A DNA stretch of 56,626 nucleotides, taken from the NCBI GenBank assembly GCA_018302605.1, contig JAGVZN010000020.1:1427-58052 (forward strand), written 5' to 3'. The stretch comes from Candidatus Woesearchaeota archaeon (GTDB lineage: Archaea; Nanobdellota; Nanobdellia; Woesearchaeales; GW2011-AR9). The position numbers and the translations under genes are program-made. Below, piece after piece: positions 13,433-55,122 of the stretch (the first letter of the stretch is position 1; each line of letters opens with the position of its first letter). Below the pieces are notes generated by a model, which saw only the letters and a program-made list of their open reading frames with translations, did not search any database and had not been told where the DNA came from.

Positions 13433-13437
13433 TTTTG

Positions 13438-13490
13438 TCAAAATAGGCAGGGGACCACCGGTCAATAGACCGGCGGAATACTCCGCGTTT
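13438..13490. repeat. Dispersed palindromic repeat, family B, short copy
   Basis: TCAAAATAGGCAGGGGACC, then the hairpin ACCGGTC/GACCGG, then GGAATACTCCGCGTTT. It is the reverse complement of the two ends of the 1666-1818 copy joined with the middle missing, so it is probably an internal deletion derivative. Confidence 0.7.
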
Positions 13491-13519: not shown

Positions 13520-13560
13520 AGATGACTATTTTTATTCCGCTCCGCAAATTTAGGTTTCAC

Positions 13561-13725
13561 GTGGGCGTGCCGGAGCGGTCAAACGGGATAGTTCGTTTGG
13601 CAAAGGTGCTAAATGAGTCCATACTCAAGTCGTTTGGGTTATGAGGCTTCCCCAAGAGGTCGATGAAGAACTGTGAGCCATCTATTGGCTTAGTGCCTAC
13701 GCAGGTTCGAATCCTGCCGCCCACA
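13561..13725 (+). tRNA. tRNA-Leu(CAA) with two introns
   Basis: Class II tRNA. The acceptor arms GTGGGCG/CGCCCAC pair fully, the discriminator is A at 13725, the T-arm is GCAGG-TTCGAAT-CCTGC (13701-13717), and the D-arm is CCG/CGG with GG at positions 18-19. A normal anticodon arm forms only if two segments are removed: 13592-13622 (31 nt, after position 30) and 13630-13679 (50 nt, canonical 37/38 site). The remaining exons, 13561-13591, 13623-13629 and 13680-13725, give stem ATAGA/TCTAT around CTCAAGA, anticodon CAA, and an 84-nt mature tRNA with variable arm TGGCTTAGTGCCTAC. The middle exon is just seven nucleotides. Boundaries could shift by a base. CCA is not encoded. Confidence 0.85.
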
Positions 13726-35370: not shown

Positions 35371-35468
35371 ATCTATACTAAAAATCTATAGATTTCGAAC
35401 AGAAATCTATGGATTTTGGCATATACCAAAAGAATTAGGTTCGAAACCTAATTCTTTTTAGTATAGAT
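35371..35468. repeat. Cloverleaf palindromic repeat, family A, copy 1
   Basis: 98 bp. Outer arms ATCTATACTAAAAA (35371-35384) and TTTTTAGTATAGAT (35455-35468) are perfectly complementary. Between them are three successive hairpins: one with TTTCGAACAGAAA at its tip, a central TTTTGG/CCAAAA, and GAATTAGGTT-CGA-AACCTAATTC. The whole folds as a four-way junction. The last hairpin can also be drawn as a 5-bp stem with a seven-base TTCGAAA loop, like a tRNA T-arm. It lies between rnz and the acetyltransferase gene. Confidence 0.85.
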
Positions 35469-35958: not shown

Positions 35959-36381
35959 ATGGTATTAAACTGTAAAGCAAAGGGTACACGCGGCGAGAGA
36001 GAATTAATCAAGATTTTTAACGAGAGTGGCTGGTCGGCGATCCGTGCAGCAGGAAGCGGCTCTTCACGCTACCCTTCGCCGGATATTCTCGCTGGAAACG
36101 CAATGAGAAGAGTGGCAATCGAATGCAAAGTAACAAAAGATCAAAAGAAATATCTTTCCAAAGAAGATGTAGAACAGCTGCAAACATTTGCTCAGCGTTT
36201 TGGTGCGGAATCCTGGGTGGGAATACGCTTTCCGGATGAAGAATGGTATTTTTTGACATTGGAAGACTTGGAAAAAACCGGAAATTGCTGGGCTGTTTCT
36301 GTGGAATTGGCTAAACGAAGGGGCTTGACGGCGGAAGAACTGATGGGAAAAGGAAACTTAGATCTAAGCCGTACATCCTAA
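35959..36381 (+). CDS. hjc: Holliday junction resolvase Hjc
   Basis: A 140-aa archaeal resolvase with the PD-(D/E)xK nuclease pattern: KGTRGERELIKIFNESGW (Glu), PSPDILAGN (Asp) and VAIECKVTK (E-x-K). It cleaves four-way DNA junctions in recombination and replication restart. Its C-terminal extension after residue 115 is slightly longer than in many Hjc proteins. It directly abuts the acetyltransferase gene and precedes the thiolation operon. A nearby four-way palindrome is a possible substrate, but only by inference. Confidence 0.93.
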   Translation: MVLNCKAKGTRGERELIKIFNESGWSAIRAAGSGSSRYPSPDILAGNAMRRVAIECKVTKDQKKYLSKEDVEQLQTFAQRFGAESWVGIRFPDEEWYFLTLEDLEKTGNCWAVSVELAKRRGLTAEELMGKGNLDLSRTS

Positions 36382-44066: not shown

Positions 44067-44282
44067 ATTCAAAAAAGACGCTGTTGACTATATAAACATT
44101 TCCAACGAAAGAAAATCATCAAAAATATTTTTTGAAAAAAAGAGAAACAAAAGAGAAGAAGTGTTCAAAATCAAAATAATTGTTAAAATAAGAACAAATT
44201 AAAAGATCGAAGATAACAAAAAGATAAAATTGCATTTAACAACAAGAAAAGAAAGAAAAAGCAATTTGTAAAGACAAACCAT

Positions 44283-44305
44283 CCCCCCTCAATTTCGAGT
44301 GGAAA
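44283..44305 (-). promoter_or_regulatory. Origin recognition box (ORB-like), left
   Basis: On the minus strand this reads TTTCCACTCGAAATTGAG followed by GGGGG, closely matching the archaeal ORB layout TTCCAxTxGAAA-n-GGGGG that Orc1/Cdc6 binds. It is inverted relative to the right-hand box. Confidence 0.78.
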
Positions 44306-44356
44306 ATGGTCGAAGAAACAATTTATTATTAAGAGATGTTTAAAAGATAGTGATTA

Positions 44357-44390
44357 TCAAAATAGGCAGGGGATCACTGGTCAATAGATT
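44357..44390. repeat. Dispersed palindromic repeat, family B, remnant
   Basis: TCAAAATAGGCAGGGGATC followed by ACTGGTCAATAGAT, which differs at a few bases from the 13438-13490 copy and loses the right part. Its insertion inside the origin region suggests that the element was once mobile. Confidence 0.6.
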
Positions 44391-44802
44391 GAGAGCATGC
44401 TTGACTACATTTAAGAACGTTTGTTCGAACTCTGATTATTTCGATGAAGCTTTCTTCGCTTCTTGATCACTGGTAAACACACTAATGGAATAATCAGATT
44501 TAAGATTTAGATCCGACAAAACAATTTGTTGGGGAAAAAGTGTTGAATCCAAAAATAGGTGTTCAATGCAATTTCATATCAGATTGAACGGTTAGTCAAA
44601 ATGAGTAAAGAACAACTAATTAAAGAAAATCCTGAAGAGCGACTATCCCCAACCCTAATGGGTGAGGATTTTTGTTCATTTCATTTAATAGATAGGTGAT
44701 TTGCTTGTAAACCACTAATCAAAACACTTAATGAAGCAACGACTTCATTAGTGCCTCAGTGAAATATTCTTTTCATAAAAGAGAGTGATGGAACACTCCA
44801 CG

Positions 44803-44898
44803 TTTTAATAATAATAATAATAATAATAATAACAATAATAATAACAATAACTATTATTAATAATTAAAATATATTTTCTATATTGAAAATATATTCTT
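44803..44898. repeat. AAT microsatellite and AT-rich unwinding tract
   Basis: About fifteen AAT/AAC trinucleotides followed by mixed ATATATT-rich sequence with almost no G or C. In the context of flanking ORB motifs it is the best candidate for the duplex unwinding element. Copy number could vary or be mis-assembled. Confidence 0.7.
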
Positions 44899-45024
44899 CT
44901 GCCACAATCAACTCTATCTTGAGATTGCATTTAACAACAAATAGTTATACTTCTTATTATTCTAACTACTTTAAAGATATATTATTCAATACACTCATCA
45001 AGTCTTAGTAGTCTTTATAACCAT

Positions 45025-45045
45025 CCCCCATAAATATTTCCTCTA
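45025..45045 (-). promoter_or_regulatory. Partial ORB-like motif
   Basis: The minus strand reads TAGAGGAAATATTTATGGGG plus one more G, then ATGG. It shares the GAAAT and GGGGGATGG parts with the left box but lacks TTCCA, so it may be a mini-ORB or weak site. Confidence 0.4.
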
Positions 45046-45081
45046 AACAAATTTCCATTCATTTCCCTCCTAAATCAATAA

Positions 45082-45104
45082 CTTCCACTAGAAATGAAGG
45101 GGTG
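45082..45104 (+). promoter_or_regulatory. Origin recognition box (ORB-like), right, at orc1 start
   Basis: CTTCCACTAGAAATGAAG followed by GGGTG matches the ORB consensus and the left box (TTCCACT-x-GAAAT). It ends three bases before the orc1/cdc6 ATG, so Orc1 binding would also cover its own promoter/start, suggesting autoregulation. Confidence 0.8.
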
Positions 45105-53805: not shown

Positions 53806-53901
53806 TTTATACTAAAAAGAATTAGGTTTCGAACCTAATTCTTTTGGTATATACCAAAATCCAAAGATTTCTGTTCGAAATCTATGGATTTTTAGTATAA
53901 A
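53806..53901. repeat. Cloverleaf palindromic repeat, family A, copy 2 (inverted)
   Basis: 96 bp, opposite orientation to copies 1 and 3. Outer arms TTTATACTAAAAA and TTTTTAGTATAAA pair perfectly; inside are GAATTAGGTT/AACCTAATTC, the palindrome TTTTGGTATATACCAAAA, and a GATTT/AAATC arm with one mismatch (CCAAAG against CTATGG). It lies 80 bases upstream of the Rpp30 ATG, within the tfe-rpp30 divergent gap. Confidence 0.85.
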
Positions 53902-55030: not shown

Positions 55031-55122
55031 TATACTAAAAATCCATAGATTTCGAACAGAAATCTTTGGATTTTGGTATATACCAAAAGAATTAGGTTCG
55101 AAACCTAATTCTTTTTAGTATA
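55031..55122. repeat. Cloverleaf palindromic repeat, family A, copy 3
   Basis: 92 bp core. Outer arms TATACTAAAAA/TTTTTAGTATA, then ATCCATAGATTT/AAATCTTTGGAT (one mismatch), the perfect palindrome TTTTGGTATATACCAAAA and GAATTAGGTT-CGA-AACCTAATTC. It has the same orientation as copy 1 and lies between the terminator above and the promoter of the last gene. Confidence 0.85.

Follow-up and report, generated by a model that had tools for sequence, protein, structure and literature searches.

What is the palindromic repeat that occurs three times within a 56,626-nt stretch of a Candidatus Woesearchaeota genome (the window, meaning the whole stretch of DNA that was analysed), and by what means has it spread? 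The first-pass annotation described three nearly identical copies, one of them inverted, each folding as a cloverleaf, and suggested a mobile element replicating through a hairpin intermediate, an RNA or a protein-binding cruciform as possible identities. All three copies are indeed present, with exact limits of 92 nt each (Table 1), and copy 1 differs from copies 2 and 3 at 3 positions. We conclude, with a probability of roughly 0.8, that the element is a MITE-like, non-autonomous DNA transposon resident in Woesearchaeota-type archaea and moved in trans by a TA-specific transposase.

Table 1. Positions of the three element copies in the window and of the parts of copy 1.
Feature	Position	Strand	Remarks
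Element copy 1	35374-35465	+	92 bp; flanked by genes for a metallo-beta-lactamase-fold protein and a GNAT acetyltransferase
Element copy 2	53808-53899	-	92 bp; in the spacer separating two divergent ORFs
Element copy 3	55031-55122	+	92 bp; identical to copy 2
Copy 1, left terminal inverted repeat TATACTAAAA	35374-35383	+	its opening TA is one of the two TAs of the target duplication; from alignment and TA duplication
Copy 1, arm B hairpin	35384-35414	+	13-bp stem, loop GAACA
Copy 1, central palindrome TTTGGCATATACCAAA	35415-35430	+	junction between the units; serves as a TA target within the element
Copy 1, arm A hairpin (AGAATTAGGTTCGAAACCTAATTCT)	35431-35455	+	from folding
Copy 1, right terminal inverted repeat TTTTAGTATA	35456-35465	+	its closing TA is the second TA of the target duplication

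Elements of this family are bounded by TATAC...GTATA, contain no ORF and are 92-95 bp long. Each is built of two minimal palindromic units in mirror arrangement with one TA in common, in the order [TA]TACTAAAA-stem-CGAAC-stem'-inner foot-TA-inner foot'-stem-GTTCG-stem'-TTTTAGTA[TA]. The outer ends span about 26-28 nt each (TATACTAAAA...TCGAAC), the outer feet read TATACT-AAAA and the inner feet TATAC-AAAA or TATACC-AAAA, and TATAC/GTATA feet are present in all copies read. The loop CGAAC is encountered inward from either end in 62 of the 68 elements that could be classified on both arms; loop flips of a single arm are rare (e.g. L139 and L184), and lone single units with two outer feet were also found. 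As single strands the three window copies fold with z = -11.8, -11.0 and -9.3, and none of 200 dinucleotide shuffles folded as well. An outer stem with three hairpins, as originally drawn for every copy, holds for copies 1 and 2, but copy 3, cut without its flanks, favours two long hairpins.

The window contains genes for TFIIE-alpha and for the archaeal Holliday-junction resolvase Hjc, which identify the source as archaeal; Hjc (35959-36381) is encoded two genes downstream of copy 1, a proximity that is probably coincidental. A separate 35-nt intergenic repeat, TTRTCAAAATAGGCAGGGGAYCACYGGTCAATAGA, occurs at 13435-13469 and 44354-44388, 31 kb apart and 91% identical, the latter copy within roughly 1 kb (44073-45101) that appears poor in genes and could hold a non-coding RNA. 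The sequence at about 13557-13722 resembles a class II tRNA gene with an intron (GTGGGCGTGCCGGAGCGGTC...GGTTCGAATCCTGCCGCCCAC); neither ARAGORN with bacterial settings nor Rfam at the gathering score called it.

The family extends well beyond the window. Searches of the whole genome and its relatives returned many copies, not only the original three: the 1.16-Mb source genome has 7, full or degraded, and a covariance model detected the family in 26 of the 353 genomes of the order, across 22 genera, with per-genome copy numbers that are lower bounds since about 12 candidates were scored per genome. In a draw across the phylum, the sole match beyond the order lay at a contig start. Scanned with a pattern, 84,980 species genomes gave at least 80 loci, and the 80 matches listed all carry titles of Woesearchaeota, Nanoarchaeota or archaeon MAGs. 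Every match that could be named is an archaeal MAG, with Woesearchaeota or Nanoarchaeota in nearly all of the titles. Phages and plasmids gave no match to the element, and neither did viral contigs searched with two patterns. A relaxed scan, which admits a few false positives, counted 81 distinct double elements in the loci of the MAG RIFCSPHIGHO2_02_FULL_33_21 (G127), and across the whole of that genome there are 126 exact end motifs (control 0). Contig ends often coincide with copies, as expected of repeats. The covariance model listed 8 matches in genome G016 (JAUYKZ01), which nevertheless has 20 forward and 21 reverse exact end motifs, 41 in all (control 0); an unread subfamily is probably abundant there. 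Further double-hairpin families with other ends (TATAGTAAG..., TATAGGAAATAAC... and TATCTCGGGAATC...) occur at TA sites in G127 and in another element-bearing genome, G126, where they adjoin or sit within members of the main family (loci L163, L172, L181, L087, L164, L182 and L208).

The proposal that the repeat is mobile was borne out by these dispersed copies and by empty sites. When the flanks of filled sites were joined with a single TA, they matched empty sites with zero gap, which defines a 2-bp TA target-site duplication. One element (L170) lies inside a Y1-transposase gene that is uninterrupted in two relatives (L115, 87% over 209 nt; L213, 76% over 198 nt), three others (L178, L193 and L094) interrupt a terminator-like hairpin of which L188 has the empty form (95-96%), and L172 and L181 form a further pair. 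In G016, an element of the G189 type is nested within the central TA of another element, and the gain is exactly TA. The spacer homologous to that of window copy 1 in a genome of the same genus (G002), about 26 bp, lacks the element; its divergence prevents a base-exact join of the flanks. Target preference is symmetric, ATA-TA-TAT, and the element's own central TATATA is a preferred target into which other double-hairpin sequences have inserted. Its use as a target accounts for the multi-hairpin arrays of relatives and for the hairpins that flank a copy on contig C1 of the source genome. The array at that site (C1:8770-8960, about 1450-1650 of L005) comprises four hairpin units, the element having TATAC/GTATA-footed hairpins on either side. 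Copies are mostly intergenic yet do enter genes: by rough ORF calls in G126 and G127, ORFs of 100 aa or more contain 15 of 58 copies, as against 71% of random TAs.

How the arms have stayed paired is a separate matter, and here the initial argument was wrong as first written. The supposedly compensatory outer-arm letters, ATCTATACT/AGTATAGAT in one copy and TTTATACT/AGTATAAA in another, differ only beyond TATACT...AGTATA and are host flank; across 98 sites, flanking positions pair at 34-44% at distances 1-4 and at 21-37% beyond. Covariation depends on the level of comparison. Among the five intact copies of the source genome, the varying pairs (14-38, 16-36, 17-35, 47-52 and 59-81) are changed on one side only, whereas between subfamilies the stems are compensated: their sequence differs greatly, while pairing, stem length, ends, loop and loop orientation are kept. 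Stems were compared hairpin by hairpin because a MAFFT alignment of divergent subfamilies misplaces the arms. In 29 non-redundant arms, the ten loop-proximal positions pair at 86%, as against 39% with shuffled partners (maximum of 2000 shuffles, 51%), and every one of these positions shows 3 or 4 Watson-Crick pair types. Mismatches in these arms are G-T in 9 cases and A-C in 6, and a separate count on the oriented strand gave fewer G-T than A-C; with no clear excess of G-T, these small numbers give no sign of selection at the RNA level. Compensated stems and arm flips would most simply be ascribed to DNA-level palindrome correction and inversion.

These properties suggest a mechanism in which the outer ends (TATACTAAAA...TCGAAC) would be read as transposon ends by a trans-acting, TA-specific transposase. 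This enzyme would insert the element at the TA of ATA-TA-TAT contexts and so duplicate the TA, and palindrome correction in DNA together with selection on the ends, rather than an RNA function, would be mainly what keeps the arms paired. We infer a cut-and-paste DDE transposase of the IS630/Tc1-mariner type, supplied by another element, because the chemistry and target consensus of that group match insertion at TA with TA duplication. One IS630 copy with readable ends was found in the same genome family; it has TATAG ends and is flanked by TA. A family-by-family search did not find DDE_3 (PF13358) in the source genome, nor in G126 and G127, the most copy-rich of the genomes checked. DDE_Tnp_1 is absent from the source genome and present in some element-bearing genomes, where the copies examined lack TATACT ends. 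No multi-copy transposase gene was recognised by eye among the ORFs of 576 kb of element-bearing loci, nor did the stretches read, which come from incomplete, partly read MAGs, contain any transposase gene enclosed by widely separated ends. We do not file the element as an IS630 MITE, since neither an IS630 transposase nor an autonomous element that shares its ends turned up when sought. The partner enzyme may have been lost, may be encoded in the tenth of the MAG that is missing or on an unbinned plasmid or virus, or may belong to a family other than those searched.

Fixed-length paired arms with a CGAAC tip are more than an ordinary MITE needs, and this counts against the MITE reading. It is conceivable, if doubtful, that extruded hairpins are the recognised substrate, the enzyme reading fixed-length paired arms and CGAAC tips on any stem and still leaving a TA duplication. 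Were this so, DPANN archaea would have a structure-recognising, TA-targeting transposition system marked by free turnover of stem sequence. The same arms, with a conserved, oriented loop that persists despite stem turnover, would also suit single-strand transposition by an HUH/Y1 enzyme of the REP/RAYT or IS200/IS605 kind that recognises folded hairpins, and Y1 genes do occur in G126, in G127 and in 8 of the 20 genomes of the family that bear the element. Yet Y1 is equally common in genomes without the element (9 of 29), Y1_Tnp is absent from the source genome, the Y1 loci examined lack such hairpins, and the 2-bp TA gained at empty sites is not expected of HUH insertion; we regard this route as improbable. 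The hairpin replication intermediate proposed at the outset is not supported either, since a TA duplication combined with inverted ends is the pattern of staggered double-strand insertion.

Multiplication of the gene for a structured RNA (with a regulatory, terminator or RNA-guided role) would explain the strong folding, the compensation between subfamilies and the mostly intergenic location. We consider it very improbable: the element has no Rfam match, the stem mismatches, few as they are, show no clear G-T bias, some copies interrupt ORFs, a scan at copy 1 found no terminator-like site, and dispersion is targeted to TA. The chance that the element is instead the cassette of a site-specific (serine) recombinase appears slightest of all. 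A 2-bp TA crossover core would leave identical flanking TAs, and the palindromic junction of the ends resembles the element's own centre; however, the targets have only a short AT-rich palindromic context in common and no attachment site, and copy number and scattered targets better fit transposition.

Among known systems, the TA-targeting MITEs of the IS630/Tc1-mariner group include RUP and Correia/NEMIS. MITEs of this group resemble the present element in a length of about 100 bp, inverted ends, TA duplication, an AT-rich symmetric target and a mostly intergenic location, but the element differs in consisting of two complete mirrored hairpins, in stems that turn over with compensation and in having no partner transposase found with the same ends. 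The inverted terminal repeats of adeno-associated virus form T-shaped or cloverleaf palindromes. The element is like them in shape and in the occasional flipping of single arms; unlike them, it is not terminal, has no replication gene, flips rarely and is inserted at TA. REP dimers, or BIMEs, fall into GTAG and CGTC families (PMC3733652). They likewise have paired palindromic units, heterodimers with different stems and nested or clustered arrays, but the element carries no GTAG or CGTC tag, has no link to a RAYT and shows TA duplications at insertion sites. An identity with REP/BIME was rejected on the TATAC/GTATA feet, the lack of Y1 in the source genome and the lack of a family-wide association with Y1.

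The archaeal cases in a 2024 review of prokaryotic MITEs come from Sulfolobus, Halobacterium, Haloquadratum and others, and the word DPANN does not appear in it (PMC10969869). In the paper collection that was searched, nothing came up on Woesearchaeota or Woesearchaeales in combination with MITEs or transposable elements; mobile elements in the DPANN group seem to have received little description. The family is best read as a variant of a known sort of DNA parasite rather than as a new RNA or hairpin-replicating element, and it has been active enough for identical copies and interrupted genes to be present. Its stems vary while pairing, length, ends and loops are fixed, which makes it a natural test of palindrome upkeep at the DNA level without RNA selection, and further insertions at the central TA show a route to complex multi-hairpin repeats.
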